A stretch of 64,000 nucleotides of DNA from Bryum argenteum (taxonomy: Eukaryota > Streptophyta > Bryopsida > Bryales > Bryaceae): contig CM073330.1 of assembly GCA_037043015.1 (NCBI GenBank), forward strand, positions 6,838,012 to 6,902,011. Direction: 5' to 3'. The notes beneath the pieces were generated by a model. It did no database searches. It saw only the letters and a list, made by a program, of their open reading frames with translations, and had not been told where the DNA came from. The first letter of the stretch is position 1, and every line of letters starts with the position of its first letter. Positions 12,245 to 46,992 of the stretch are shown piece after piece. The translations under genes and the position numbers were made by a program.

Positions 12245-12247
12245 ACT
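12245..12247. other. CACTA target-site duplication, left copy (ACT)
   Basis: The three bases just before the CACTA terminus are ACT, identical to the three bases right after the other terminus (26,951-26,953). A 3-bp duplication is the hallmark of CACTA/En-Spm integration and fixes the element borders. Confidence 0.92.
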
Positions 12248-12276
12248 CACTAATAGAAAAGGGTGTCAATTCTGAC
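12248..12276 (+). repeat. CACTA left terminal inverted repeat
   Basis: Starts with CACTA and matches the reverse complement of 26,922-26,950 at 28 of 29 positions. The inner part (GGTGTCAATTCTGACT) is repeated once more at about 12,294-12,309, forming a short direct repeat just inside the end. Confidence 0.95.
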
Positions 12277-12590
12277 TAGTCGCGAATGACTATGGTGTCA
12301 ATTCTGACTCTGACTAGTCAAATGCGTATTCAGATCGGAAAAACTTAGTCAGCTAAGGGGGGGGTAAAACTTTTAGTCATATTTTAGTCATATTTTAGTC
12401 ATATTTGTAGTCATACGACTATTCGGAGTCAGAATTTTTAGGCACCTCGATGATTTTACGGTTGGGGAACGCCAAGAACGTGGTTATTTACGACCGGGCA
12501 GGCATATGAGTAGAGTAGTCATCGTCTTGACTAAGGTTTCGGGCAGCAACATGACTACGCATGATTTTCTTGTAGTCATCTGACTACCAC
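12277..12590. repeat. CACTA left subterminal GACTA/TAGTC motif region
   Basis: Dense copies of GACTA and TAGTC in both orientations, including a run of three ATTTTAGTCAT units at about 12,377-12,410. In En/Spm, subterminal short motifs bind the TNPA protein. I infer the same role here from position and density. Confidence 0.75.
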
Positions 12591-13500
12591 AATGGTTTTT
12601 TTTATTTTGGTTCCGACCACTCATAAGACTAATTTCGTGATTACACTAAATTCCTACTTGTCTTATGACTACTGTAGTCATCCCTTAGTCACCACATCCG
12701 TATGTTTTATTTCGTTTCCTACCATTCTATATAATAATTTACTATGTACACTATATTCACACATCCCTTATGACTACCGTAGTCATAACGTAGTCATCAG
12801 AGTAGTTTTATAATAAGTGGTTTCGACCACCCATAAGACTAATTTAGTGTCTACACTAAATTCCCACCTGCCTTATGACTGTCGTAGTCAGAACTTAGTC
12901 AAAAGGCAGTTAGTTTTTTTTAATTTAATTTTTTTCATCTCCGCTAATAAGACTAATTTCTTGTCTACACTAATTTCCTACATGCCTTATGATTGTCGTA
13001 GTCAGAACTTAGTCAAAAGGCAGTTAGTTGTGTTTTATTTTAATTTTTTTCATCTCCGCTAATAAGACTAATTTCTTGTCTACACTAAATTCCTACGTGC
13101 CTTATGACTGTCGTAGTCAGAACTTAGTCAAAAGGCAGTTAGTTGTTTTTTTTTTTTAATTTTTTTCATCTCCGCTAACAAGACTAATTTCTTGTCTACA
13201 CTAAATTCCTACATGCCTTACGACTGTTGTAGTCAGAACTTAGTCAAAGGGCAATTAGTTTTTTTTATTTTTTTTATTTTTTAAAAATCTCCGCTAATAA
13301 GACTAATTTCTTGTCTACACTAAATTCCTACGTGCCTTATGACTGTCGTAATCAGAACTTAGTCAAAAGGCAGTTAGTTGTTTTTTTGTTTTTGAATTTT
13401 TTTTCATCTCCGCTAATAAAACTAATTTATTGTCTACACTAAATTCCTACCTGTCTTATGACTACGGTACTCATAATTTAGTCAACCCAAGGGTTTTTTT
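12590..13500. repeat. CACTA left subterminal tandem array, about 8 copies of a 95-119 bp unit
   Basis: The landmark CTTATGACT...GTAGTCA (with variants) recurs at about 12,661, 12,775, 12,871, 12,985, 13,100, 13,216, 13,335 and 13,454. Each unit also carries AAGACTAATTT, TGTCTACACTAAATTCC and AACTTAGTCAAAAGGCAGTTAG followed by a T-rich run of variable length. Spacing is 114-119 bp in the last six copies. No gene overlaps; open frames at 12,592-13,062 are translations of the repeat. Confidence 0.9.
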
Positions 13501-13654
13501 ATGCACTCACTGGTTCAACAAATATGACTATAATTAGGAGTAAGTCGTTCATACGACAAAAATCAACATGTAGCTGATTCTCATCAGGTACTCGTCCACA
13601 CTATCTCTCACACTACGCGTACTACACGACCGTATATATCGACAACGCTTCCTA

Positions 13655-14270
13655 TCACTCATCTGCATCCTCCTCGGAATCCAGCAAGTTCTGTTGGGCT
13701 TCCTCTGTGGTCAATCTTCTAGCAGTGCCGTGATCATGAGTTTGTACTTCTGCTTCCACGAGTATGTAGTGAGGTCTTAGGCCCTCATACTCTTCGTCTC
13801 TACCAAACCGTAGACTCTGTAATTCCGGTCTTCCCGCAGCTCTTGACTCCACTCTTGCACCACGTGGTTGTCGGCGTAAAACGACCTTCCATCCACTGTT
13901 TTCTTCCTCATCGCAGAAAAATACTTGTTGTACGTGAAGGGGAAATGCGAAGGAGTCCGCTGAGTATGGAACCAACCGATCAAATCTGAACAATGTGAAT
14001 CCATATTCGTCGGTTTTCATTGTAGCACGAGCTCCCCTTCTATTTGCTTGTGCCCACGCGATCTAACACCACAACTTCAAATTTCCCGTAGTCCACGCTA
14101 AGAATTTCGTCCACCCACCCCACGTACTCCAGATTTGTTGTCTTCAGATTGCGGTCATGCGAACTAGCGCGACAAGATTGGAGGAACGTAGCTGCTACTG
14201 CGCTGTCACATGTGGCCATATTAGCTTCTATTCCACGTACACGTATATGATTTCCATATGCGTACATCGA
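13655..14270 (-). pseudogene. TNP2 transposase C-terminal segment (DUF4216-like)
   Basis: Two open runs on the minus strand, 14,267-14,040 and 14,020-13,655, together match the domain that usually ends TNP2-type transposases. The first holds NLKTTNLEYVGWVDEILSVD, the second KTDEYGFTLFRFDRL and QQVFFCDEEE. The frame slips by one base between them, near 14,060, just before AWAQANRRG. The last part ends acidic (LLDSEEDADE). It is the 3' end of the gene that starts at 19,122. The break may mean the protein is truncated. Confidence 0.75.
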
Positions 14271-14779
14271 CTAGTATCCCTTTGCCTGGATCAAGGGGTC
14301 GACAAACGCTTGGATGTCCGCGGAGACATCCGTCCCCGCCGCCATATCGTTGGATCTGACATCGTGAAACCATTGATTCAATTCTTTGGTCTTTGTATGT
14401 CGGTGGGGTAATCTACGCGTTTCTTCCTTTGATGTCGACGGAATATGTTGCGGGTGTCTTCTCGTCGCTTCATTTCACAAGCGTAACGCCTGTAGCAAGC
14501 CAGCACTTCGACTGCGTTATTTCACATTAGCCTGTTTTTACAATGACTACTATTTGTAGGCCCTTTCATATGGCCTATGACTATTTGTAAGCCCTTACAG
14601 ATGGCCTATGACTATGCGTAGTCATTCCGAAGCAGAAGAATGACTATGTGCAGACATACTCCTTAGCCGACGCATGACCACATTCCAAAATAAAACTAGG
14701 GGCTAATACGACTACGCATGGATGTTCCCCTTCAAGTAATGACTACGCGTAGTCATCTTTTGCATGATAACCTGTACAA

Positions 14780-15095
14780 AATTGTTTCCGTACTGTGAGC
14801 GCAAGTTCCATGCAGTTCCAAGAGAGGATTTGGTGCATACTCTCTGTAGTCTACGATGATTTCAGCGTTGTTCATCACAAAATCATGGATCCATTCTTTG
14901 CCGAGCTAAGAAGAGAGTAAGCGCCGTCTCTCGTTCCCCTCTAGAACTTCATCATTCATAGTAGGCTCCTCTTTGTCGTCCCCACACACGCCGTGTCGTC
15001 ATGCTCCAATTCTTCATGTACTCCGCATGTAATCCGAGAATCGGCGTCTCCTCCATGATATACCCTCGTGCCATCGAGCCCTCCGGTTTAAGCTC
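14780..15095 (-). pseudogene. TNP2 transposase, region after DUF4218, broken
   Basis: After the DUF4218 exon the minus strand continues with PEGSMARGYIMEE (about 15,090-15,050), in a frame shifted by one base relative to YVRQRA. It then reads MKNWSMTTRRVWG and, in another frame, GNERRRLLSS followed by a TAG codon and KEWIHDFVMNNAEIIVDYRE. These are the usual family sequences between DUF4218 and DUF4216. At least two frame changes and one stop are visible, so this part looks decayed. Confidence 0.7.
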
Positions 15096-15636
15096 GTTGC
15101 CGTACATATCCCTTTAAGGTTTTGAGGTACCGTTCCACGGGGTACATCCAGCGTGTATGCACCGGGCCACAAATGGCTAATTGTTGCACTAGGTGGATTG
15201 GAAGATGTGACATGACATCGAAAAATGACGGTGGAAATACTTTTTCCATCATGCACATGGTCACAGCTGTTTCCTCCACCAAATCGGACATTGTTGACGG
15301 ATCCACAGACTTCTCACATAGTCGCACAAACACCCTGCATATCCGAATGATGGCTGCCCAAACGTCTTTTGTTAGTAATGTCCGGAGACACAAAGGGAGG
15401 ACCTGTTGCATCATGATGTGGTAGTCATGTGACTTAAGCCCACGAAGGTCTCCATCAGGGGTGATCCTCTTCGATAACTGCCCTACGTAATGGCTGGGAG
15501 TCTTTAAGTTCCGGATAGTGTTGATGAATGTCACCTTCTCCACCTTCGTAAGAACGTAAGGAGCAGCCGGTAGTACAATGGTATCACTCCCGACGTGTTG
15601 AAGGTGATTATGAGAGTCTGCGATGAAGAACACATC
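15095..15636 (-). CDS. TNP2 transposase exon with DUF4218-like domain
   Basis: This minus-strand exon starts after a splice acceptor (GTAG, exon from 15,636) in phase 0. It contains LPAAPYVLTKVEKVTF, GLKSHDYHIMMQQVLPL, VFPPSFFDVMSHLPIHLVQQ and RWMYPVERYLKTLKGYVRQR, all typical of DUF4218 in plant CACTA transposases. The usual DVMHxEKN stretch and about 45 residues that normally precede this point are not visible. The exon opens with DVFFIADSHN instead. That stretch is thought to hold the last acidic catalytic residue. Frame is lost after YVRQRA at about 15,092. Confidence 0.85.
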
Positions 15637-15914
15637 CTACGTCAGAACATAACTAATATTACTAACATGCATGTTCCAGAGTAAGACCACTGTTAGTCCT
15701 GCTTTCGCTGAGAATGAGGAGTCCTACTCATGCGTTCTCCGCATATGACTGCTGTTAGTCCTATGGTCTCAATGTATGACTACTGTTAGTCACGATCTAT
15801 CAGTACATGACAACAGGTAGTCGTTGTGTTCTCAAAATCTGACTACCCCACGAAAAAACATTTTCATATCATGAGTAACAACAGAAACGTGGTTTACAGC
15901 GTAAGCATGCTTAC
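15637..15914 (-). repeat. Transposase intron filled with GACTA palindromes
   Basis: This lies between the donor after LPYWQ (CAA|GTAAGC) and the acceptor before DVFF. It holds repeated GACT-ACTGT-TAGTC type motifs (for example TGACTACTGTTAGTCA near 15,777) of the same kind as the element's subterminal regions. No missing catalytic exon is recognisable in it. Confidence 0.7.
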
Positions 15915-18900
15915 TTGCCAATATGGAAGATTGTAAAGAACTGATAGCCTCTTCACTCCGCTCTGGTGCACTGGATCACTCTCGCCTCCTTCTCTATTTT
16001 CATCACTGGCTGCTAGCCACCTCTGCCTAGCTTTAGCATGGCGCACAATATCTTGTCCATTCAGAGACCTTGGGGGTGCTCTTATTTCCTCCGTGCCATC
16101 AAATGCTCTTCTCAGTCGCCGATACGGATGATTCCTCTGCAAGTACCTCCGATGTCCGAGGTAAACATTCTTTCCGAGTGAAGCTGATCGACGAGTACTA
16201 ACGTTAGGGCCGCATTCAAGACAACCTTTGTACCCCTTTGTCACTTGCCCGGAAACAAGACCGTATGCTGGGTAATCGTGGATGCACCACATCAACATTG
16301 CTCTGAGTGTGAAATTGGTGTTGTGACTGTTGGCGGAGACATCCACGGCATTTACACCCTCCCAAAGTTGCTGCAGCTCTTCGATAAGAGGGGCCAGATA
16401 CACATCTATATTCGATGACGTCACACTCTCCTTCCCTGGAATGAGGAAAGTAAGCATCATAAACTTTAGTGAAAGAGAAAACCTGCGGCTTTAAGAAAAT
16501 TGCTAATGTTTGTCCACTGCTTTAAGAACAAGTGTAACATTTGTCCTGCTGTGTTATAATCCTACTGCGGCTGGTCTTGTTATTTCTAGATATAACTAAT
16601 GTTGGGGAACTTAAATCAGAGTATAACTACTTTCAGTCATGGTCTTTCAGGAAATGATATTTTGTCGTCACTCTAGTTTCAGGATATGACCAACTATTAG
16701 TCACTGTCATTCTAGATATGACTAATCGTAGGCATATGTTTCAAGAGTACGACTAATGTAAATCAATTGACTTCACCATACGTCTAACTGCAGAAGTGTG
16801 AATAACAGCGTGGTCGGAGTGACATGACAACTATTTACCTGGGATGAGGAGAGCTAGCATTAGAAAGAACCGTTTCGTTACTAGCCAAGGAGGTAGGTTG
16901 TAATTTAATAGTATCACTGGCCACGTTGAGTGGCTGAGTGACTGGTTTGAAAAAGGATTCACTCCATCTGTGGCCAGAGCTAATCGTACATTCCTCTCGT
17001 CAGCTGCGAATTCCGGATATAAAGCGTTGATGTGTTTCCAAGCTTTTGAGTCCGGTACACACTCCATATTGCCATGTATGTCTTTCCGTGTTGTGTGCCA
17101 CTTGTTCAACTCTGCTATCTCCTTACATCGATACATTCGCAGTAGTCGGGGTATAAGTGGGAAGTGCCTCAAAATCTTCACCGGCCGCCCACTATTCTCC
17201 GATGCGTATCGCTGTTGTCCACATAGTGGGCACGTCAACGCCTCGGCCAAGTCCCCTCGGAACAAACAACAACCGTTTTGGCAAGCATGGATTAGCTTGT
17301 AATTCAACCCTAGTGTCCGTATGAGTTTATTCCCTTTCAAGTGCGATTTGGGAAGTTTGTTGCCCTTTGGGAGAAGTTCGCTGATAATGTTCAATAGTTC
17401 ATCTGCACACGTGTTTGATACACCGTGTACTGTGAAACAATTGAAAATTAGGAGCACCGCCACCAATAGCTTCGTCTCACATCCTTCGTAAAGTGGAACA
17501 CTTGATATGTGATTGAAGTCATCTGGGTATATGTCAGGGAGGTTGTCGTCATCAACAGCAACGTCAACTTCGTCCTCATTCGCAGAGTCGTCATCAGGTG
17601 GAGGGACACAATCGTATCTGCCAAGGCACTCCATAATCATCCTGGCAACGTCGAAATGTTCTGAAGCAGTTGGCATTGTTGTGTTGCCCTCGTGAGTTTC
17701 GTTTGGTTCGTGAAGGTCTTCACGATCATCGTCACTCTTGCCTGTAGCACTAGACTGCACAATAAAAACTTAGACACTCGAATGAGTTTGTAAGGCATAC
17801 ATATATCGATGTAAAAAAGATCTACTGCTGTTCGGAACAGATGTAATGGTCAGAGCCATGGATTTGAGTAGAGGAATTGTTCCCATCACTTACGAACGTG
17901 ACTTATAGTTTATCGGTTTGGGCAGAACATAACCACGCCATACATGACAAACAGTTGAATATTCCTAGTCGGCAAACGGTCCAGATGTCTAAGGCAATAT
18001 GACTAAATTTAGTCATATGTATGAAAAGGAGGACTACAAGTAGTTATCGACGAGAAAAGTGGTGGTTGCACACTTAGATCATGAACATGACCATTGTGAG
18101 ACTGGTCAGATGTACAAAACATATGAGTGCATTCACTCACTCAGGTGTGATCAATATCAGGAGTCATCAAACGATGTATAAGAGTACAAATTCCTGTGCT
18201 GATACCCTATTCATTAACAACCTTTGAAAGACATATCAGTTTACAGGGTAAGATGTGAAAAGTTCCTCCCCCACTTCAATGTCACGCGCTGCTACAGTCA
18301 TGATATACTCCCAAGTATACGGATTCCATGGAGTAGGCAAGATTACATATTCCCAAATCACATTCTGTATGTGCTCTCGTCCAATTGAACTGTTTATAAA
18401 TCCTGCTACATTTCCTTTCAACACATCTCCATCGAGGTACGTGTTTTTCTTCATGCGTATTACGTATTTCAGAAATCGCGGGTCCTGCTCACACTTTTGA
18501 AGGACCTCGGCCTCTGAGAAAACATTCCCAACAAAGGGCAACAACTCTTCGCCTAATTTTGCTGGCTCCATAGCATACAGGCCCCATCCCATGTGCGGAT
18601 GTGTTGACACTCTCACCTGCCACTTCCTCTTCCAGAATGTGAAGATGTGGAGCTTTGGGATGGGGCCTGTGCTCAATTGCACAGTGGCTCCATCTGTGCC
18701 ACCAATATGACGAGTCTCTTTGTTCTTGGGAGACGAAGTACCTTGTCCGCTCGTTGCAAGCGGGAGAGGATTCGAAATTATGAACTTTAATGCAGCAATT
18801 GCTGCGGCCAATACAACAGGTCTTTGTATTTCCTACACGAACGTATCAAAAGAGTAATGCAATCATTATGGATCTCCACACATTTGACACCAACATCGAT

Positions 18901-19122
18901 TAAGAACAGTCATGAGTACCGTACCAGAATGGATGTTTTAAAAACTGGATCGCGCTTGTACTTCCGTAGGTGTCTTCGGATGGTTTTAATAAAAACCACT
19001 CTTCCACCCATGCATTTCTTACATGGGCAACGGTAACTTTCTAGACCACGTAGGTCCGCTTCTCTCTCTTCGATGTCCCACAACTGCAAGTGCAGAAGAT
19101 CTTCACGCGATGCTGGATCCAT
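15915..19122 (-). CDS. SET-TNP2 fusion transposase, 5' four exons
   Basis: Exons on the minus strand: 19,122-18,925; 18,832-18,245; 17,754-16,839; 16,435-15,915. Phases are 0, 0, 1 and 0 and every junction fits. Exon 1 (66 codons, ATG then DPASREDLL) carries a CPCKKC...HLRKYKRDP pattern like the transposase-associated zinc-finger-like domain. Exon 2 encodes the SET domain. Exon 3 starts acidic, then has CPLCGQQRY, ILRHFPLIPRLLRMYRCKEI, DSKAWKHINALYPEFA, VRLALATDGVNPF (first catalytic Asp) and YNLPPWLVTKRFFLMLALLIPG. Exon 4 has NIDVYLAPLIEELQQLWEGV, RAMLMWCIHDYPAYGLVSG, C-x2-C near YKGCLECGP and KRLSVLYNLPYWQ. These are canonical TNP2/Transposase_21 blocks. The protein would act in the nucleus on the element ends. 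Downstream parts (15,636-13,655) are broken. The SET exon could alternatively end at the TGA three codons past its donor, giving a separate short SET protein. Confidence 0.8.
16436..16838 (-). other. Transposase intron with GACTA motifs
   Basis: A predicted intron between LALLIPG (donor CAG|GTAAAT) and KESVTSSNIDVY (acceptor TTCCAG). It carries several GACTA/TAGTC motifs (around 16,590-16,760). No exon is seen. Confidence 0.65.
17755..18244 (-). other. Intron between SET exon and TNP2 catalytic exon
   Basis: A predicted intron of 490 bp (donor GTAAAC, acceptor TTGTGCAG). It contains scattered GACTA-like motifs and no recognisable coding sequence. A stop (TGA at 18,238-18,236) follows soon after the donor, so retention of this intron would yield a protein ending right after the SET domain. 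Confidence 0.6.
18245..18832 (-). CDS. SET-domain exon inside the transposase gene
   Basis: The exon is bounded by acceptor GTGTAG and donor CCT|GTAAAC, phase 0 on both sides, 196 codons. About 70 linker residues come first. The domain then reads VRVSTHPHMGWGLYAMEPAK (GxG cofactor loop), YLDGDVLKGNVAGFINSS (core motif; the usual NHS is NSS) and TVAARDIEVGEELFTSYP (C-terminal motif, where ELxYDY is usual). SET domains transfer methyl groups from S-adenosylmethionine to lysine, mainly on histones. There is no obvious Cys-rich pre- or post-SET. Loss of the His in NHxC may lower activity. The exon is open along its whole length with no stop, unlike the decayed 3' end of the same gene. I do not know of a CACTA family with this domain. 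Confidence 0.82.
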
Positions 19123-20624
19123 ATTAACTTGCGATCTCCGCCTATACTGCATGCATACATATTTTTCGTACCTCAGTAATTGTAGTGAAAGAATCTGAAC
19201 ACAAAACATAAGAAGTGGAAGAATGTCATCGAAGCATCTAAATCCGCGGCTGTCATCTGCACGTAACATGTGACTATACTTAGTAATGTCTCGCATCCTT
19301 CTGACTATAGTCAGACGTATCCGTGTAGCATAGGACCATTCGTAGTCATTATCTGACTACCCATAGTCTTGCACAAAAACGTGACGACTATAGTAAGTCA
19401 TATATCCGGTGCGTTAGAGGAGGTTAATGCGTGATATTCATATGGGTGAAAGCTATACATATGGGCGAATCGTTGTAAGTAAGAAACTTTGCTTCTTTGC
19501 ATCACCGAGGCCACTGCACTGCTGTGCATCACCGAGGCCACTCCTGATCATAGCAACTTATGCAATTCAGTTTCACATGCAATCATATTAGGAATTATTA
19601 AATCCAAAAATTCTCGCATGTGTTTTAAGATATAATAAAATTGTACCATGAATGTACAAAGAAAATTGCATCTGAATAACAACAAACCTTTTGGTCTATG
19701 CAATGGAAACGTGCGCCAGAGTTTGACCTTCTACCTGTACTTCATTCCAGCATCAGACTCGCAGAAATATTCGGCCTCTCTCATTGTGAACAGTATAGAA
19801 ATCCAAAGCTATCAAAATTTCTGGGACATCGAAATGGATTACGAAGTTACGTATATTCTATGATAATATTAGTCTTGTCCTGAAAGAGCATGACTAAAAA
19901 AACCAACCATGTGTTCAGTTTTGCTTATGACCTCTATCACGAATGAGAAAGAAAATTCATATCTGATACAATCACAAAAAAACGCAGATGGGTATGAATG
20001 GTCGGACAAAATTCTAAAAGGACCAAACTTTATCTTTACAATGAAAGGGCTGCGAACATATTAAAGTTCATTGTCTTTCTTTTTAGAAAACAAAACTATC
20101 CATTTTCTAAATAGACCGTTTACGTAGTGAAAGAAAATTATGCGTTTACCAGAGAAAGCACGGACCCTTGAAGATTGAATCTAGTAGTGAAGAATGTCTT
20201 TTGCTCGTAGGTGAAGGACTCCACCTGTTCGATTTGATGCAAATAAGCGGTCACATGGCTGTCCAGGAGATGATGACATAAAATATTTAGTAATAGAAAA
20301 AGCAATTGAAAAAATCTGGACAAATATATGACTAGGACTAGTCATGAGTAGAAATTGACTGACTAGTAAACGGCGGCGGTGATCATTTATTGCACCCAGC
20401 CGCCAAATTTTGAATTTCATGTCCGAAATGATATCTCACTCAATTGCACAACCTCTCTACTCCTGTGCATCACCGAGGCCACTCTCTCTCAATCAAGTTG
20501 GAAATTCATGATAGCTCTCCACCCACATACCTTGAAGAACCCGAAGTTGACAAAATGGCCTCCAATCAGTTTTCTATTCTCCCTTGTTCAATTGCTGTAA
20601 TTTGTAGAGCTCTTGTGTGGAGCT
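19123..20624. promoter_or_regulatory. Divergent intergenic region of the CACTA element
   Basis: This 1.5-kb stretch separates the two ATGs, 19,122 on minus and 20,625 on plus, so it must hold both promoters or a shared one. The 17-bp word GCATCACCGAGGCCACT occurs three times, at 19,499, 19,526 and 20,467, close to both genes. GACTA/TAGTC motifs are also present (19,290-19,400 and 20,325-20,365). No confident TATA box is assigned. Short open frames here have no recognised similarity. Confidence 0.5.
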
Positions 20625-22362
20625 ATGGCGTCTAGGAAGTCTGCTCTCCTTCCTTCACCACCTGATCGAGAGATTGAGAGTACTGATAGTGAGGAAGATA
20701 AGAGTGATAAGAGGAACAACACGGGGAAGGAGGTGGCAGAGGGCGCGGAGGTGGCAGCATCGGTAGAAGGGTCGGACAAGGAGAGCGAGGCGGAGGAACG
20801 ATCAGACAATAGCTCGGAGGAAGGGGTGTCGGAGAAGTTAGCCAGTGAGGAAGGATCGGAGAACTCAGCCTCGGAGGAAGGATCGGATGAGGAGGACGAG
20901 GCGAAGGAGCAGTCGGGAGAGGAGTCCGAAGAGAACGCAGCGTCAGAAAACGCTACTTCAGCGGAGGGGTCCGAAGAGAAGGTAGTGTCGGAGGAGGAGG
21001 CGTCCAAAGAGGAGGCATCCGACGGAGAGGCGGCGGAGGAGGAAGGCAAGGGCACGTCGAATGAGAAGGCAGTAAGCGCGGAGAAGGAAGCAAGCGGGTC
21101 GGAGGAGGAGGAATCTAGCGGCGCGGAGAAGGAAGCAAGCGGCGCCGAGGAAGCAGCACCGCATCCAGCCCCTACGAAGCCTAGTTCAAAGGTTCGTGTA
21201 ACCTGCATCGCTGGCCGCCCACAATTTTGCCCGCCGAACAATTCAAGTACTCCTAGGGTTTGAATGATCACGAAGTACTTTCCCGTCATAGCCATGTGCT
21301 TGTATTTGTATGACTAATGTTAGTCATCCCAATCTAGAATGTGACTAATTTTTTCATTTTACAGAAGAAGAAGGCGCTCGAAACGCCCCCGATACGGCGT
21401 CCAGCCACGCGGTCGGCAACGAAGGAGAAGGAGGTCGTCCCTGGCGTGCTGCTATCGGTCAGGCCCTCCCGCTCAAAAACTCCGTTGCCACTGGAGGAGG
21501 AGATTCTGTCCCTGTCCGATAGCGACAAATGCTCGCATCAAAGCGTAGGAAGGCGCGAGGGAAGACAAAGAAGGAGAAGGCGCCCTCTCCAAACCCGTAC
21601 GAGCTCGCGCGCGATAAGAATGTGGAGTTCAACCAGCGCGTTTTGAAGTCGTTGGGTATTCAGAACCTCACTACGGCTGCCGAAATCACCACATCTCCTC
21701 CGAAGACTACTTCCCCGTACGTAAATAGTAATATTTGTCTAATTCCAGGAACAATGACCATTGAATATAGTGCCTCGGTAGAAAAGATAATGAGGATGGT
21801 AGCAAATTTACCTGACAATTGCGTAGAAGAGGTTTTTCAAGGAATTGGTAGAATGCCACAAATCACTGGTGTAGCCTTGCATGAGATGGCTAAAGTATTA
21901 ACGGACATTTTTCAAGAGACCAGGGAGGCTATGAGTCCACAGAGGAGGTCTAGTCGCATCACATCAAAGCAACCGACAAGTACTGCTCGAAGGAATCGGG
22001 AGTCCAAGAAGGACGCGTCCGAATCCGAGCCTGAAGAAGTGGAGACGGAGGCAGAGTTTCTCTCGGAGGACGAGGCGGCGTCATCTGAGGAGGACGAGGC
22101 GTCATCTGACTCTTACGTGGACGAGAAAGAGTCAGTCGAAGCAGCAAAGAGAGTGCCCTCAAAACCTAAGGTACGTAATATGGGGCCAAATGTAGATGAG
22201 GAAATGAGGGCAGTAAAGAAAGACATAAATATTTTTAAGATTCAGTTCATGCTCCATGAAATGCTAGAAGTGTCCGTTGCTATCCAGAAAAAGGCTGCTC
22301 AACTGCAGGAGGAATGTCGGCTTGTGTTGGAGGATAACACTCTCACGGATGTCTTGAAATAG
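20625..22362 (+). CDS. Acidic TNP1/TNPA-like accessory protein, N-terminal part
   Basis: Exon 1 runs from ATG 20,625 to 21,191 (189 codons), then donor AAAG|GTTCGT and acceptor TTTTACAG, then exon 2 from 21,365, phase 0. Exon 1 is extremely acidic and repetitive (SEEGSEN, SGEESEEN, GAEKEASG units, mostly Glu/Ser/Ala). Exon 2 starts basic (KKKALETPPIRRPATRS), then has NPYELARDKNVEFNQRVLKS, which resembles the segment in plant En/Spm accessory proteins that precedes LGI. A second acidic stretch and a helical C-terminus (QKKAAQLQEECRLVLEDN) follow, ending at TAG 22,362. The frame slips by one base near 21,527 (ACAAATG), so this copy is probably disrupted. The role, binding the subterminal motifs, is inferred from position and family. 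Confidence 0.6.
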
Positions 22363-22930
22363 TTTAATTCGTGACTACGTCAGTCATGTACAACGCGCAT
22401 ATGACAATTTCTAGTCCTAACGTCGATATTGCAAAAACCTAACTTTAGACCTAACACCCGACCATCACTACTCAGATTTCCTGACTATTCTGACTTCAGC
22501 ACAATCCGTGTTTCCAATTACATACCCTCGTGCCTTGTCGTATACGTGCTTGTTGTTTTTAATAACTCTGTGACAAGGCTTTACTAACGTGTCTTTACGA
22601 GCTAATATTGTATAGTCACATTAGACTTGTTTTATCTTTAGTCGTCTACCCTGCCAACGTGACTATTGAGAGCAATTTCTTTTCAATATTGGACTACCTC
22701 TAGTCATCACTCTCTCTATATGACTAAGTAAAGTCATATACTAACCATTTTGTACTCGAATCAGTCCTGTGAGGCTACACATATGACTATGTTTAGTCAT
22801 AGATTCTCGTTGAATTACTACATTTAGTCATCTCCACGAAGCATCTGACTAGTAATAGGCATTTAACACATCATATGTCTTAAGAGGTAGTATACGAACT
22901 ATCTCTAGAACTTTAGACAGTCGCATCCGC
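22363..22930. repeat. Internal GACTA/TAGTC motif cluster
   Basis: Non-coding stretch between two parts of the accessory gene, with many GACTA/TAGTC words (for example ATATGACTATGTTTAGTCAT at about 22,781). The same motif type is seen in the subterminal regions and in the transposase introns. Confidence 0.7.
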
Positions 22931-24335
22931 AGTTGGGGTGGCAACCATTACGAAGCCTTCCATGGCCATGGCAGAATGTTTGCCGCTTCTTGCAGACGCC
23001 ATTACGATTTTCTCATGGGAGAGATGCGAAAATCCGCCGCCAAGGGTCCTCCTCCCCGAAATCCGCACCAACACACAAAGGACGGACGACGCAACAAAGA
23101 GTCCACCCCTTCAAACGAAAATCGAAGGTTCGTACATGTGTATCCCGCATCCGAAAAAGGCCACTTTTCCCAATCTAGAATGTGAGTAATTGTAGTATTC
23201 CTTTTACAAAATCTCACTAATGCTAGTCATGCTCTACCGAGAAAGGGTGAAGTCCACGGACCCCATCCACCGGCAAAGTGACAGGGAAACGGGCATACGA
23301 GAATCTCCGAAGAGGTTCAAGGTCCCCAAGGGCGGCAAGAAGAAAAAACCGTGACGATCCACTTGCGCAACTAAGAAGATGAGTCGGGCAAAGAATGCTT
23401 TATGATGATGGGGAGGAGCACAACCGGTTGGAGCACATACCACATTTTCCGCCGCCATCGTCATCCAATGTATCCAATCGGTCTTCATCGACTTTGACTC
23501 AAGATGAGGACCCCGACATGGTAGCACCGCCATTGCGCAAGATCAAGAAGTCAAGGCGAAGCGGCGATCCTCGCCGGTAAGCGCCCAAGGCCGATTCGCG
23601 GACCGCAAGAAGAGGCGGGCAGCGGCGAGCGAGCTTGTGAGGAGGAGGCACGCGAACGAGAGGACCATGGTGGCCGTCGCTACCTAGTCGAGGTGGACAT
23701 GAAGGGCATGCCTTGCGGTCAAGACCGGAAGAAATGGTTGGACTGCCTGCGAGGCCATTCCCAGCATGTGGACTTCTCAGTCGACAACTACAACCATTAC
23801 AGCACCCGGATGCTACTTGCCATTAAGAAAAAGGTGGACTCCACCTTTGATTACGAGGGAGGTCTTGGGTATGTCACGGAGGAGTCTTTTCACCAAGTAT
23901 TGAGGTCTCGATTGAAGACGAAGCGTACGAATTGAAGAAATTATTGCTTAAGGGGACGGGCAAGCCACAAAGACATATCTAGTGAGCATTGGGCCAACCT
24001 CTCCACGATGATTGTCAAGAGGAAAGATCAAGCAAGCGGAGAAGTCAAGGGAAATCGTGCGGCGTCGAAGAAGGTGGCGTACTCGAGTCTTTGGCTCCCG
24101 AACTAATCGACTGGATGGGAAGCATGTGCGGACATCGCTCTTCATCTTGAAGCGATCAAAGGTGGCGCAGAAAGTAACCCGGACATCGAGACACGCATGG
24201 AGGGTATGGAGGCGAACCTGAAATTGATCTTAGAACATTTGAAGGTTCCAAGTGTTGCATCTGCACATCCTCCACTTCTACAGCAGGGACTCAGTGCCAT
24301 GCCCACTCTAGCACCGGACGCGGAGAAGGTATCTA
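22930..24335 (+). pseudogene. En/Spm accessory gene middle part (Transposase_24-like), broken
   Basis: The plus strand here is GC-richer and coding-like. The run at 23,693-23,935 reads DMKGMPCGQDRKKWLDCLRG and ends FHQVLRSRLKTKRTN. This fits the plant En/Spm accessory domain in which a G-x-P-G-x start is followed by W...R and a LKSRLKxK end. Downstream, SSEHWANLSTMIVKRKDQAS and a coiled-coil-like METRMEGMEANLKLILEHLK equivalent (about 24,190-24,240) follow the family order. Stops and frame changes are present, for example a TAG just before EVDMKG. The start of the region (23,110-23,220) partly repeats the exon 1 donor and intron seen at 21,190-21,360. That suggests an internal duplication. 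Confidence 0.5.
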
Positions 24336-24794
24336 CAGTCATCATAGGATTATGGATAGTCATCCGTAGTCATCTGTAGCACTAAGTAGTCATAGTTATA
24401 GTACTCTAATATTACCATTGAATTTTGTAAAGAAGAAGTGACGAAGGTTGAACTTATGTTATTCCTTTCTGATTGCCCTAACGTGGTTTGTGTGCTTGGG
24501 CGGTGTGGGGGAATAGGAGCATGTCGCAGAGGAGGACACAAAAATGGTAGAAGATATAAACCAGGACGACAAGGACGACAACATCGCCACGCCACGCCGC
24601 GGGATGCTGAGTACACAACAATCGGAGGAACGAAATAACTTTGAGGTAAACTTTTGGGATATGACTAATCGTAGTCATACACGCACATTGAATGACAATT
24701 TTCAGTCACCAACTTCACGTAGTATGAGTAAATTAGTTTACATGTCCCTCCCCCCTTTCGATTATCAACATCAAATGGGTTATTTTCTTCCGAT

Positions 24795-25210
24795 ATGAGC
24801 GGGAATGCGGAGACAAATGACGACGTCCTCAAGACTAAAGGAAGGAAAGGGAAGGAAGTGGTAGCAGACGACACTGCCAATTCTCCGCCGAAGACTCGTC
24901 CAGCCGCTGAGAAGAGGAAGAGGGCTACCGAAGTCCAAAAGCTAATCGAAACTAGCGGGGGTGAGCACAAGACGAACCGTTCACAGAAAGAGAAGGTAGT
25001 TTACACAAGGAAGGAGAAGGCGTCCGTCACTGCGCAATGTGGTGACGACAGAGAAGGGGTCCGATGTTGGCCTCGAGAAACAACCCGCGACGAAAGGGAG
25101 TAAGCCCAAGAGATTCAAGAACCCAAACTATTGTGGCGAAAGACAAGATCTCGAGGCGGAGATGTGGAAAGTCCTGCCCCATGACGAGAAGGGCACAACA
25201 GTGGTAATGA
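24795..25210 (+). CDS. Accessory gene, basic linker exon(s)
   Basis: Lys/Glu/Arg-rich coding-like sequence: TKGRKGKEVVADDTANSPPK, KRKRATEVQKLIETSGGEHK, and in another frame ATKGSKPKRFKNPNYCGERQ up to a donor-like GTG|GTAATG at about 25,202. The frame changes near 25,036, which could be an unrecognised splice or a break. The basic composition fits a nuclear DNA-binding protein. Exon borders are uncertain. Confidence 0.4.
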
Positions 25211-25345
25211 GGTTTGCATTTGTCAAACGTCATGTGCGACTCTGGAATGTGATGGTCTCTAGTCATGTTTTGAGACGGTATGACTACCTTCAGTCATCGT
25301 CCGTGCTTGTCTAATGATATGTAATCACGTTTGTATGGAATGCAG

Positions 25346-25672
25346 GCAGACAGGCAAAAAGAGGAAGCTCCATCACAGCGAGAGAGGATCACCAGAGGCT
25401 CTATTGTAGAAATCAAGGGTGTTGGTGAAGGGGAAGAGGCTATGGTAGTCGGCTTTGGGAAGGTTATTAACCTGGAAGGATCCAATTTCCATGGTGTGGC
25501 TATCCCGGAGGGAATGGCCACCGTGGAGGTGACAAAGAGCAACGACGATGCATACATGCTCTGTGAACCGGTGAATATGGACGACCCTCCAATCACAAAC
25601 ATGGGGCAGGCAGTAAACAACTACATATTGTGGCCTCTGGAATTCCTCAACCAGGCTGTCGAACTGGCGTGA
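25346..25672 (+). CDS. Accessory gene C-terminal exon, TNP1/DUF8039-like domain
   Basis: This exon follows acceptor ATGCAG (phase 0) and ends at TGA 25,672. It contains GSIVEIKGVGEGEEAMVVGF, FHGVAIPEGMATVEVTKS and ITNMGQAVNNYILWPLEFLN. The pattern V...VPxGxxxVxV...ITxxxQAxxxxIxWP is that of the C-terminal domain in many plant CACTA TNP1-like proteins. The family role is presumed DNA or partner binding and is not established. The exon is intact in itself. Confidence 0.65.
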   Translation, partial: ADRQKEEAPSQRERITRGSIVEIKGVGEGEEAMVVGFGKVINLEGSNFHGVAIPEGMATVEVTKSNDDAYMLCEPVNMDDPPITNMGQAVNNYILWPLEFLNQAVELA

Positions 25673-26921
25673 CGCTCTCGTGTAGTCGTAGGTGCGCAGG
25701 CGTATATCTAGCCATTTTACCGGACTATCACTAGTAGACTATAGTCATCCTCTCTAGTACTGTAATCGGAAACGGTGACGACATGTAGTCATCCTATCTA
25801 GCTCAATATTTGCAAACCATGACTAACCATAGTCAGTATATGTAGGCATATGACAATTTGTAGTCATATGACGTAGTCTCGTGTTCGTAGATATGACTAT
25901 GCTTAGTCAATGTCCACAAACATTTCCACACAAATAATGGTTTTGGTATATTCATTACGCTGGTGCCGTTGTTGAATGCATGACTATTCGTAGTGACTGT
26001 ATTGAGAGAAAATGACTATATGTAGTCATGAAGCATGCATTGTTTCATTGCCATGACTGTACGTAGTCAGGATTTGTAGAGATGTTTTGGAAGACATGAC
26101 TGTTCGTAGTGAGCCTGTGTAGAGTATTTAGAAACTCTCTGTCTACACGTAGTCATCAGCGACACAACTCTCGCTCCGAAAAGATAACTTTTAAGCTACA
26201 GTTGGAACCCATCATATGACTAACTGTAGTCGTGCTGTGTGCTAGATGTAATCAAATTACTAGTTAAGCATCCCGTAGTACTCACTAGCAGTACTTAACT
26301 AACTGACTATTGAGATGTACATTTGCGACTATTTATAGTCATTGAAGTCATCAAAGACCTCATCAGGTATTCGTGGAACCACAACATAGTTCACAAGAAG
26401 ATGACTAAAGATTGTCATCCTGTGGACTATGAGTAGTCCTCACATGCAAAGTGAAGACTAGAGTATGTCAGTCCCATGACTACCGTTTCAATGAATACGT
26501 ACCAAAGATGACTCTATGTAGTCAGTTGCATATTATCTTGTGACTATGGTTAGTCACACACGGTCAGCATATTATGACTAATAGTAGTCATGTCTCAATT
26601 CTAGCCAATCTGACTACAGAGTTCTCATATGTCCACGTCACCTTACATGGTCACTGCTGACGTGGCCATATTTCCACGTCACCTCACATGGTCATTGCTG
26701 ACGTGGCCTTATGACTGTCTGTAGTCAGATGACTATGTCACGTCACTCTGCCCGGGCAGCCCCCAAACGAGGTCTCAAAAACTCCATCGGGAACGAGCCT
26801 ATGGGAACGCCTGTAGTCATCCCAAAAGGGTGTCCGATCTGACTAGGTATTCGACTAGTTGGCTGACTACATGTAGTGCCGTCAGGTGCAGTCAGACGTC
26901 GATTTTGAGTCAAAAAACCCG
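25673..26921. repeat. CACTA right subterminal GACTA/TAGTC region
   Basis: About 1.2 kb crowded with TGACTA...TAGTCA motifs in both orientations, many as short palindromes with a 2-8 base centre (for example near 26,012, 26,515 and 26,573). No tandem unit like the left array is seen, so the two subterminal regions differ in structure. No gene is present. Confidence 0.85.
26633..26707. repeat. Two tandem copies of a CCACGTCA...TGACGTGG hairpin
   Basis: A 41-bp unit occurs twice, starting at 26,633 and 26,674. Each runs from CCACGTCAC through ACATGGTCA to GCTGACGTGG. The unit ends are inverted repeats (CCACGTCA and TGACGTGG). TGACGTGG is the plant bZIP hybrid C/G-box core, so these may be regulatory. 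That role is inferred. Confidence 0.75.
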
Positions 26922-26950
26922 GTCAGAATTGACACCCTTTTCTAGTAGTG
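26922..26950 (-). repeat. CACTA right terminal inverted repeat
   Basis: The reverse complement reads CACTACTAGAAAAGGGTGTC and continues to match the left end. It is followed immediately by the ACT target duplication and then by LINE sequence. Confidence 0.95.
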
Positions 26951-26953
26951 ACT
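26951..26953. other. CACTA target-site duplication, right copy (ACT)
   Basis: Matches 12,245-12,247 and is followed by LINE sequence (the plus strand is again A-rich). Confidence 0.92.
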
Positions 26954-30319: not shown

Positions 30320-38215
<7,896 letters not shown>

Positions 38216-41346: not shown

Positions 41347-44300
41347 TTAAAATACAACCGCCTGCTTTTGTTGTTGAATTTTGTTCCAATGAGGCCTTCC
41401 TTTCGTGATAGTGCCACCTTCAACAACATCGTTCTCTTCCTTAGCTTTGTCTTGCTTTGAACCCATCTTCAACTGCTCAGCAATGCGCTTCACACCCCCC
41501 GAATCGCGAGGGCTATTGGTGCGAGTTGTCACCCCAATTTTGTTGCGACAATCGGTCCTTATTTTCGGCAGCTCAAGCCTCTCTTTCTCCAGAGCATCAA
41601 ATATTTCTTGCAGTCGCTCAGCTTCCATTTTCTTTGACAGAACACATGCCAAGCTTGAAACTTGATCCATAATACAATTTGTTGTTGTGACGTTACATTG
41701 TTCGGAACCCTCCTCTATTGGTTCCATCGCCATTAGTATTGAAGAAGTGGACGAGGGTCCCCCATCGATCTGTGGACCTTCAGGATTTGAGAGCCTTGTC
41801 TTGATTTGGAGCAGAGCTTCATGTTCAATAACAGTCTCCGATTTCGAGCAGTACTGCTTGGAAGCCTCACTTTGGGACTCCGTCAAAGCCATGGCACTGG
41901 GCTTACTTTTTGATGACTTTTTTGATGACTTCCGAACGTTCTGCTCTTGAGCCACCTGAGTGTCATCCTGGCAGGCAACACCTGCAGCCACAATTTAAGG
42001 TTAGAAACATAAGAAGGTTACTCCGGATTGATTTAAAACTTTAAATAATCACAACTAGTAGGTATCACATTAGATACCCAAGCAGTTTCTCCTTTTCGTC
42101 GACATACTTTACCAGCTTGGGAGTAGGCAAGGCTCTGCCGATACAGTCTGCTTCCATCACTCGAAGTTTCATCACCTGTGTTTCTACTTGTTTGGGATAG
42201 TTGATCAATCTGATGATGATGCTAAGGATGTTTCGTCTTTGTAGTTGCATGCTTACCTTCAATAACACGAGTTCTCTCTTTTTCCATCCCATTTACAGAT
42301 GGCTCTACTATCCTACATTCGATTCCTGAATCTTTCCGTACTCCGTTTAACTTCGAGAGAACTTGGGATTTTTTCTTAGTAGCAACCACCAACTCAATAC
42401 ACCTAATGAAGGTCCTCTTCGTTGCTGGAGGAGGTGGCTTTGTGAGAGAACTCACTGCAACGGGTGCCTCTGCTTTTTCTGGGCTTTTTCTCGCTTGAGG
42501 TGGTCCATCTTCGTGGGCCTCTCTATTCACAACTGAAGTGTATTCTTCAGAGTCGAAAGCTTTATTGCGATGCTGCAGCCCCACATCCGAAGTGTTCTCT
42601 ACAAACGTCTCATATTCGGCTTCATAGTCTCCAACCTCTTGCAGTGTAACAGCCGCCTCAGCAGGTGTCTCCACTTTCAACTCACATTGTTCGTTTTTAT
42701 CTTCTTTTGCACCAACGTGATTAGAGGGGCTTGATGGCTTGGGGTCAAACAACGTTCTTCGACGGAAACGCTTGCCTCCATCTTTTCGTGGACTTCGAGA
42801 TTCAAATGCCTTTTTCTTCATTTTTAAAGTAGCACCACTTGGGACGGGTCGTATACCTGGTACTCTCCAAAATGAAGGTGCCCTTCGTAGACCTGCTTTC
42901 ACTAAATGATGAGCAAGCCGAGAGTCCAAACCAGGTATTTCTTCGGACGGAGATCCAACTCTCTTGCAAAACGGAATACTACTATCTGGCCTTTTCCTTG
43001 GTGGATCATCAAAACGGCAGTCTGGGGAGCTATTCCCACCAGCTTGCACTGACTTGCTCATTGATGTAGGGCGTTCATGCTCGTTACTATCTCGCAACCA
43101 GGTCTCAGCATCTACATCTGTGAACTCTTTTATGGGAGAGGATGCCTTACTGTCCATTTGTGATGTGAGATTGGCGCAACCTTGATCCTCGCGGACAGTG
43201 ACCCCACCAAAGCGAAGTGTCTTCACCCAGTCGAAGCGTTTGTTTCCGTCAGGGTAACCACCTTGCACGTTACCTCCCCCAGTTCTCGAATGTTCCTTCA
43301 TGTCATCTGAGTAAGAACAGTCATCCACAACGTCCCTCTCTCTTTCTTTCTTCGAGAATGTCCTGGTGGGCTTGTTGCTTGGCTTTCCAGCTTCTCTAAG
43401 GACTTTGCCCCACCGTTGCACTAGTGCGGCTTCAACTGCTCTTGACCCTGTTGTTACACTATTGTTTCCTGGACCAAACGAGCCTCCTCTAGAATGTGAA
43501 TGACTCTTCACTGTTCCTGTGTCACTAACTCTACTCGACGCGCTTGAAGGTGCCCCTCTTGTAGTTGTCCCCATAAACCGGCCTCCAGACTTTCGTTCAT
43601 CAACCTGACATCTTCAGTTTGGAACCAGTGCAGAAATCTTAGAAAGAGTACTGCTTTACTAGATATTTTGAAGAAGCTACTTAAGTATACCGAGTATTCT
43701 CTTAGAACCTCGATGGAGACCAAAGGAATTTCAAATACAAACATAACTGGGTACCTTGATTCTGATTGCCGATGAGAAGCTCGTGAGGATGATGAAGTAG
43801 CGGGACGTTGGCTTGTATCGTCATTCATACTTTGGTTGGGAGCAATCCGGGCACTGTTGCACTTGACATCTCGGTTGTCCAATAATAGAGGGGTTTGTGG
43901 GCAGCTAAGAACAGCAGGTTTGGCGTTGTCGGTGGTAACACGTCTGGCTCCATACCGGCCTTGCAAATTGGCCAACTTCTGACTTAGCAACAAAATTTCA
44001 TGGGCGATTTGCTCCTCTAGCTGGCGCTGATTATCCATGTCTAGATCAACTGCGAAGTTGGAAGCGTGATGAGCGGGAGGGAAGACGGGATCGGGCATTT
44101 CGTGTTCGTCGGTTGGTTTTGGCTGGGCAGCTCCACATTCTGTTGCTGGTGCCCAATTCACTTCATACTTTTGTTGGTCCACACACATGGCAGGGACGCC
44201 AGGAAAGATCCGCCCTTTGTGCACCCACGGAGCTGGACAAACCAACACATGCTCATCGCCACTAGGGATGTAATGAGTAGCTTCACATGTATACCCTTGT

Positions 44301-46992
44301 GATGGTTGAACCATGTTCCTACCTCCACCCACCGGCTTCATAGCTTGTGCTCCATACATCATTGGTGCCTGCGCACCTTCAAACTCCATCTTCTGACAAC
44401 ATGAAGGAGCTTCAATTCTACGAGGGAAGCACTTGATCTCATTCAGAGACGCAGGCTCTACGTAGTAGCGAACAGCCCTGGCCCGCATGTAACCAAACCC
44501 AGAACATTGAAGGCAAATTCAACAACGGAGCAATGGAATAATACTCCATTATTCAATACTCTATCAACTAGATAGCGCACTTCATGAGCTCCACTAGAGA
44601 GAGTAGTTGGTAACATGCATCTGTTACATGTCGTGGCAAACCCATGAAGCAAGCTATCTAGCATAGCCATCAAGACGACATTCATCAGAAGTGCCATACA
44701 CTCAGAAGAAAAAAACTTGGAAACACAACGAAAAGATGAGCAATACCCCTTGGAGAGGGGAGCTTGGATAACAGAAGAGGTGAAGTACGCTGCAGGGTAT
44801 ACGCGTTAAAATGCCAAAGCAAGTGACTTCAGAAGTGAGAATAATAGCGGAGTGTAGGATTGAAAAATCACCTTGGGACACCTCGTTGAAAAGAGCAAGG
44901 GGTGTTGAATGTGGTGCTCCGTCCACATGCATTGCAACCACTTGCAACAGCTTGGTTGTTGGTGGAAAACGTAGGACCGGGGCAGCTCCTACATAAATTT
45001 GCATGAGGCATCCAATTGGGATTGGCTGGTTGCGGGAAACAACTTCGAGCAGGTAGGTCGTGTACACTCCTCGCCTGTTCATCTCTAGAATCCGGCACAC
45101 ACCGACTCTCGGTAACTGGAGCCAGGTGCCCTGCAGAGCCACCTGCATTATACATTCTCAGTCAAGATTAATATGATTCGATGGAAGACTGTTACGCAAA
45201 GGACTTCGGGTTCTTCATGCTCGTGAAATCTTCCCATTACATCAATCCCTTCTTGTATGACGACGTATTTGACTAATGCTTCTTATTGCAACAGGAATTA
45301 TACCACATATTAAAATATCCAATCAGCCAAGTAATTCTAGTTGGGTATGCACATAGTAAATGGGTATAACCTAATTACAGTGTCTGCACATAGACACATA
45401 GACTTCCTCAAAATTTGGACAAATAGACCAACTCCGTCTATATCAAAACCTAAATCTACTCATACTAACCATGTTGCATTTGGCTAACTTGAAAGCTTAA
45501 ACCTCTAAGGTGCTTAGACCTAATGAACCTCTACACTCCAATTGCATAACTGGCGTTTTTATATGCACCGATGGAAGTAATAGCCTCAAAGTACCTGAAT
45601 TTTCATTATTTACGACGGGGTTCGGTCTGTCCTCTTTTAGAGTTTCTGCAGGCTCCTCCTTTGACTCTCTTTCCTCAGGGGTTTGCAGGGCATGTTGCAA
45701 ATTGTGGAAAGTTGCTTTCGAACTCATATACTGTGAGGTCTGGAAATCTGGGTGGATGCAATTCATGGAATGAATAGTATTCAGTTTATTTTCTGGAAAA
45801 CCAGCGGCGCTGTTGCTCCAGAGAGCTCTGAACGTCTCCTGCTGAGAGTTTTCTTCCGCTCCCTTGTCCTCTGCCAATCATCACTAACCAAAATTATAGA
45901 GCGATTTGGACCAGTAGTATACAGAAGTAGATCAAAACTAACTGGTATTGCTTTAACCTATATATAAGAGAGGGAACACTTAGTACCAATAATTTCTTTG
46001 CGCATAAATTAGGTTAATATCGTCTCTTCAATACTGGACTACTTTACATGGTTGCTTATGCAGTTCAACAGTTCATAGCTACAAATCTAAAGTGATCTCC
46101 CAAGACCGCACTCACACAATGTGTGCTCAATTCAATCTCAAGGAAGAAAATGACGCATACCAGCGTGATTGACGGAATTGAATCCACCTGTAGCCGTTCT
46201 TAAGCCAGACAGTTTGACCACAATCTGTTTCACTCCAGGTCGGGCAGAACCGGTGCTCTCATCCTGACCGAGACAGCAATGGCACTGATCAACAGTCTTG
46301 TGACAACACCAGGTTAGTTACTAACTCAAACCAGCTGCATACAATTAACATCAGAATTCACTAACTCCCAACAGCAGCCAACCTTTACTCGTGATGGGCT
46401 CAGCTTTTGAAAAAACCTTACACTCGAAGTTTTAAGGTGGTCATTGTCATGTAAGGCAGAACATTTCAGAGAACGTTGTCATACCAATACTACAAGCAAG
46501 ACACATTGGTCAACATTCGATGAAATAAAGATTATTAAAAATGCTCGAATGAATGGTGTCAAGGAGGTCTGGAAATTCAATTAAGCACAACTAAGGGAGG
46601 AGACAGACAGAGGTACGGCATACGTATTACAGTAATGCCAGAAGAATACTCAGTATCGGCGAGCGTTTGTGGAGGCTGATAAGTACCATTGATTGCTGGG
46701 CAGAACTACCCTCGTTGATGTCCGCAGGTGCAGTTTGCGGCAGAGGCTCAGGCAACGAAGTGAAATCCTGTACATGCTCTCCGTCACTAGCAGGCCGCTT
46801 TCGACCTGTGAGGCTCATGTCCATAGCGGCAGTATCTCCAGAGGTAGTGTTCTCCTCTTTTGAAGGAAAACCTCTTGGTGTAGGGATGGTGAAAGACTCA
46901 TAACTAGGGCCAGAAGACGATGCCCTAGTATTATTCCAGTCTCCTGACTGGCTGATACTCATGATTTTTTTCCTCGGCCTGGAATGCCGCAT
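41347..46992 (-). CDS. Large unrecognised nuclear-type protein, seven exons
   Basis: Exons on the minus strand: 46992-46687, 46296-46161, 45870-45520, 45142-44872, 44477-43755, 43611-42257 and 41981-41347. The phases 0, 1, 1, 2, 2, 1 fit at every junction and give 1,258 aa, so the model is strong although the family is unknown to me. Visible features: a basic start (MRHSRPRKK), a FTIPTPRGFPS motif near residue 35, a small Cys/His cluster (VDQCHCCLG) in exon 2, a Cys-rich stretch in exon 4 (NLCRSC, SGCNACG), a predicted helix in exon 5 (LEEQIAHEILLLSQKLANLQ), a VEAALVQRWGKVLREAGK block in exon 6 and RKRP/KKKSQ basic patches. Much of the rest is disordered (Ser, Pro, Lys, Glu). This looks like a plant nuclear scaffold or chromatin-associated protein. 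The acceptor choice for exons 2 and 6 is the least certain part. Confidence 0.75.

Follow-up and report, generated by a model that had tools for sequence, protein, structure and literature searches.

The window, by which we mean the whole 64,000-nt stretch of DNA that was analysed, contains a CACTA transposon whose TNP2 transposase gene has an exon for a SET domain lying between its first exon and its TNP2 exons. This is the order described in an earlier note on this DNA, and it is upheld by the profile matches of the SET and TNP2 exons. The features of the locus are as follows (the element and its TSDs are given without strand).

12248..26950, whole CACTA element, 14,703 bp, defined by CACTA...TAGTG ends, inverted repeat and motif density
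12245..12247, left 3-bp TSD, ACT
26951..26953, right 3-bp TSD, ACT
18925..19122, minus strand, exon 1, with ATG, a CPC..C finger-like domain and donor CTG/GTACGG; PF13963 below cut-off
18236..18832, minus strand, SET exon, 198 codons plus stop TGA (18238-18236); PF00856, E 6e-10
18239..18244, minus strand, GTAAAC, taken for a donor in the earlier note, codons Val197-Asn198 of the SET protein
16839..17754, minus strand, TNP2 exon a, acidic linker and first part of Transposase_21, with phase-0 acceptor GTGCAG/ and donor CAG/GTAAAT; PF02992, E 5e-31
15915..16435, minus strand, TNP2 exon b, rest of Transposase_21; PF02992, E 4e-45
15088..15617, minus strand, DUF4218 exon, ends approximate; PF13960, E 1e-28, profile positions 1-77 of 114, the match stopping early in the window copy
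13655..14062, minus strand, weak DUF4216-like region; PF13952, E 0.002, below cut-off
20601..25314, plus strand, second, divergent gene region with acidic and basic ORFs

The SET exon had been proposed to lie inside a mobile element, and the ends of that element can be placed. The arms of the inverted repeat (12247-12276 and 26922-26951) match at 29 of 30 nt, the TIRs open with CACTA (12248 CACTAATAG..., with the complement ending at 26950), and both are bordered by the TSD ACT, which was read on the window copy only. The 1-kb bins 12-26 hold 56 of the 66 TAGTCA and 49 of the 59 TGACTA motifs of the window, with peak densities at 12-14 kb and 24-27 kb that correspond to subterminal repeats. 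In a second copy, L019, the CACTA start falls at the same point and the flank is different. TIR-like ends were found in 3 of 20 loci, the window copy included, against 0.3 expected in shuffles, most of the fetched stretches being too short to reach an end; another guess at the TIR, CACTACAA, gave 2 matches against 2.3 expected, which is chance level, and was dropped. Near the left end of the element there is a tandem array of a 119-bp unit (12833-13485, 5.6 copies) with GACTA...TAGTC motifs, whose copy number, as the blastn pattern suggests, varies among copies of the element, as well as an 11-bp tandem array.

The transposase exons match TNP2 (PF02992), and Harbinger families are absent among the Pfam matches up to E 0.1; matches below the cut-off, such as PF13701, were set aside. 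For exon 1, the CPC..C pattern agrees with the zinc-finger-like N-terminal domain that had been described, whereas the corresponding profile, PF13963, stays under its cut-off. The second gene region is a candidate for a TnpA-like partner: four of its ORFs, when scanned, gave no Pfam match over the cut-off, and parts of it recur in three of the groups of copies defined below (A, C and E). Within it, positions 23,525-23,935 show about 49-50% identity in groups C and E. Two long open frames outside the element, 36238-37284 (+) and 42222-44518 (-), are probably host genes.

Judged by its sequence, the SET exon product is a SET-domain protein, since it matches both the SET profile (PF00856, as a profile search of the region was expected to score it) and the SET fold. 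The GWG motif pointed out earlier is G82-W83-G84, the GxG motif, which is invariant together with Asn147 and Tyr195 in 24 aligned SET sequences; Tyr195, the presumed catalytic tyrosine, is matched to the YDY tyrosine of yeast Set1 by a second HMMER stretch that is weak (-0.5 bits). The NHS cofactor motif, in contrast, reads N147-S148-S149 in 24 of 24 aligned sequences, the asparagine being kept and the histidine replaced by serine. No pre-SET or post-SET cysteine cluster was seen in the CACTA SET sequences, which, with the changed histidine, makes methyltransferase activity uncertain. The nearest solved histone methyltransferases have about 17-27% identity to the SET exon product.

The SET exon gave 91 matches in the genome, which merge to about 72 places, and 27 of the 91 span at least 180 residues without a stop. 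The 32 copies that we read (20, plus 12 more picked for divergence, mostly with open frames) form five groups: A with 12 copies, B with 1, C with 4, D with 8 and E with 7. Exon 1 precedes the SET exon in 31 of these 32 copies and TNP2 follows it within the fetched stretch in 28, which disposes of the objection, anticipated in the earlier note, that the SET exon might be a one-off capture. Of the best 150 of 596 TNP2 matches, a set without the window copy's group (whose TNP2 falls into two exons), 21 are located 8 kb or less from a SET place and 129 farther away, so the SET exon marks a subset of the CACTA elements of this genome. Two relatives that have no SET exon, L043 and L044 (C1:5425468 and C4:286652), match exon 1 at 62% identity. 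L044 has exon 1 and TNP2 separated by a plain phase-0 intron of 94 nt, with the TNP2 frame broken further on; L043 has a TNP2 frame of 500 residues, but its exon 1 contains a stop. Other TNP2 genes, L045 and L046, have finger and TNP2 in a single frame of 618 residues.

Beyond this genome, a profile search returned 117 relatives of the SET protein, none with an informative name. When the SET sequences are placed in a tree together with 23 metagenome homologues, A, C and D form supported clades, and outside relatives of their own are seen for A+B, for C, for D and for E (the last weakly resolved against its single relative), which indicates that several of the subfamilies are older than the recent copies in this genome. 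Scans of viral contigs, run with P0012 and alignment A1 as queries, yielded no confirmed relative, and a search of genome contigs brought up distant bacterial SET proteins only (55 loci, 23-31% identity), none of them a donor.

To compare selection on the exons, we used the A-B pair (dS 1.0-1.7), the other pairs of groups being saturated at synonymous sites. The omega values are 0.25 for the SET exon, 0.20 for exon 1, 0.18 and 0.16 for the TNP2 exons and 0.05 for DUF4218. The dN/dS comparison across copies that the earlier note had asked for therefore indicates that the SET exon is constrained, somewhat less than the other exons. Within groups, omega is 0.30-0.55 for SET, as decaying copies would show, 0.30-0.68 for exon 1 and 0.43-0.72 for TNP2. 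The TNP2 tree has 32 rows, 19 SET-bearing loci and 13 SET-less ones, the remaining SET loci having too little TNP2 in the fetched stretch. A single origin of the SET-bearing TNP2 genes is weakly rejected (p-AU 0.016, 19 SET-bearing and 11 SET-less rows, a small sample from which L053 and L057, SET-less rows inside group E and possibly truncated copies, were dropped). An early gain followed by losses, or exchange of the exon between lineages, would explain that these genes do not form one clade.

The junction between exon 1 and the SET exon is conserved. The exon 1 donor is GT in all 31 copies that have exon 1, in 29 at the projected phase-0 point and in 2 one base off through an indel, while the SET acceptor is TAG/G in 28 of 28 copies with an aligned SET start; the introns between them measure 70-124 nt. 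In the window copy, the acceptor's TAG stands in frame as a stop codon, and the SET exon has no Met before residue 81, a point already within the modelled fold, so the SET domain needs an upstream exon. One of the 117 homologues, P0131, has exon 1 sequence (69% over 29 residues), then 28 in-frame residues and then the SET start. Order and frame are thus the same in a further genome, which is not to say that P0131 records a splice event: the 28-residue stretch, nearly identical to one in P0042, could be intron sequence left unspliced, and the frame of P0131 breaks further on. The TNP2 acceptor, in turn, is phase 0 in representatives of all five subfamilies. Skipping of the SET exon therefore preserves the frame, as the phase-0 intron of the SET-less L044 illustrates, and the layouts of L043-L046 indicate that finger-TNP2 is a normal transposase, which makes the SET exon a removable alternative end.

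The situation is different at the other border. The earlier note had described good splice sites in phase 0 on both sides of the SET exon and predicted from these a single protein made of finger, SET, acidic linker and TNP2; the upstream half of the claim stands, whereas the donor at the SET end is not conserved and the single protein is not supported. A main product of this kind, with SET as an internal cassette exon, would fit the phase-0 borders throughout, the possible donor CCT/GTAAAC in the window copy and the in-frame phase-0 GT present near the SET end in subfamilies A, C, D and E (64th-92nd percentile by rank). On a 5' splice matrix of approximate frequencies, however, this GT scores -1.2 bits in A and -2.3 bits in E at the equivalent site, and 1.1 in C and 0.5 and 1.2 in D at shifted sites, against 1.9-4.6 for the exon 1 donors; E has a better GT (2.1) near the SET end, in the wrong phase. 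Subfamily B, a single copy, has no GT from Tyr195 to the stop. Of the 117 homologues, 57 reach residue 197 (located by motif), which is Val in 25, Leu in 27, Ile in 2 and another residue in 3. A Leu or Ile codon cannot begin with GT and leaves no donor at that point, and the residue is other than Val in 32 of the 57. Behind the supposed donor, Asn198 is kept in 53 of 57, and the C-terminus has the form [V/L]N followed by a stop 0-19 residues on, the stop proper to each subfamily being kept in 28 of 32 copies. The tail lengths themselves are mechanical (0 in 25 of 57), because a gene caller extends every frame to a stop codon; the conserved residues behind the supposed donor have no such explanation. 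Moreover, a 741-residue fusion query matched 19 proteins, and by Pfam none of the 19 has a SET domain. Taken across the family, the sequences do not support a conserved donor after the SET domain, and we regard the single protein as quite unlikely to be the main product. The donors of C (92nd percentile) and D (90th) rank well enough to keep a fused isoform in play in those groups, and such an isoform may occur in A, C, D and E.

If SET were an independent gene within the intron, expressed from a promoter and start of its own, this would account for the SET exon ending in its own stop; we consider it very improbable, given that the intron upstream is so short, that the acceptor keeps both its position and its phase, and that the first Met of the window copy lies as far in as residue 81. 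More weight is due to the idea that SET is indeed a separate protein, but not a histone methyltransferase, acting as an inactive or interaction module or as an enzyme for another substrate. The serine in place of the NHS histidine in every aligned sequence and the low identity to the solved histone methyltransferases speak in its favour, whereas the invariant GxG motif, Asn147 and Tyr195 and the purifying selection on SET speak against it, and on balance we hold it to be unlikely.

We consider it probable that this is a CACTA/EnSpm lineage in which the transposase gene gained an alternative terminal SET exon, giving exon 1-SET-stop and exon 1-TNP2 products, with a SET protein that could act on the chromatin of the element. 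The model is based on the element ends, the exon order, the exon 1-SET splice signals, the SET C-terminus with its stop, the selection and the SET fold; the two transcripts, the DNA binding of exon 1, the methyltransferase activity and the anti-silencing role are what we infer beyond these. Exon 1 would provide the start codon together with a small domain, rich in Cys, that may bind DNA. Spliced to the SET exon, it would give a finger-SET protein of about 264 residues ending at its own stop; spliced past it to the TNP2 exons, it would give the finger-TNP2 transposase. As the N-terminal domain is common to both predicted proteins, it could, if exon 1 binds the DNA of the element, direct the SET protein there, and this protein would then modify histones, most likely keeping the copies open to transcription. 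We put forward this anti-silencing role tentatively, self-restraint through a repressive mark being a possible alternative. In its full form the model describes a splice switch that would fit one and the same element-recognising N-terminal domain to a transposase in one case and to a SET histone methyltransferase in the other; the element would choose in this way whether to move or to rewrite its copies' chromatin, by a switch kept in at least four old subfamilies; we see this as a reasonable possibility, if one that falls short of an even chance.

A precedent for two products exists in En/Spm, where, according to two reports, a single unit yields tnpA and tnpD through alternative splicing, the tnpD ORF lying within intron 1 (PMC1636069, PMC2613891). 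The element shares with plant CACTA/EnSpm transposons (En/Spm, Tam1, Tgmt*) the CACTA ends, the 3-bp TSD, the subterminal motifs and the TNP2 transposase, and with En/Spm a single transcription unit with alternative products, documented there and proposed here; it differs from all three, as these accounts describe them, in having a SET exon between the first domain and TNP2. SET histone methyltransferase genes have been reported in HarbingerS and MuDR transposons of Phytophthora (Kojima and Jurka 2014, cited in PMC12730594); these are likewise DNA transposons with a SET gene, and, compared by description, belong to other transposase superfamilies and another host. The same article describes TET/JBP in EnSpm and other transposons of fungi and its proposed role in countering silencing (PMC12730594), again an epigenetic enzyme captured by a DNA transposon, but a DNA dioxygenase in fungi and not SET. 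In SETMAR, a host gene is fused to a mariner transposase (PMC8616336), so that SET and transposase domains meet there too, while the CACTA family described here is mobile and multicopy, and its SET protein is probably not fused. A search confined to the open-access literature on SET with CACTA or EnSpm found no SET-bearing CACTA element among the papers listed. Transposons bearing epigenetic enzymes are thus already known, and SET within a CACTA TNP2 gene would appear to be a new addition, by which the TNP2 superfamily, in a plant-type host, would join the transposon groups reported to carry SET. That the host is plant-type is judged from the TNP2, DUF4218 and DUF4216 matches and from named plant proteins among those matched by the fusion query.

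Transposons with an epigenetic enzyme of their own make it possible to ask directly whether mobile elements use histone marks against silencing by the host. In the present case, about 72 SET-bearing places, many with open frames, stand beside a close SET-less relative in the same genome, which allows a natural comparison of chromatin state, with L043 and L044 as natural controls for the SET exon.

The genome also contains a second, larger SET family (L048-L051, e.g. L051:1378-2112 (-)) on C1 to C11, with at least 157 matches (best 150 of 362 candidates scored). Its members combine SET with a weak pre-SET match and an RFVNHRC motif. This family is distinct from the CACTA SET, and its vehicle is possibly another mobile element.
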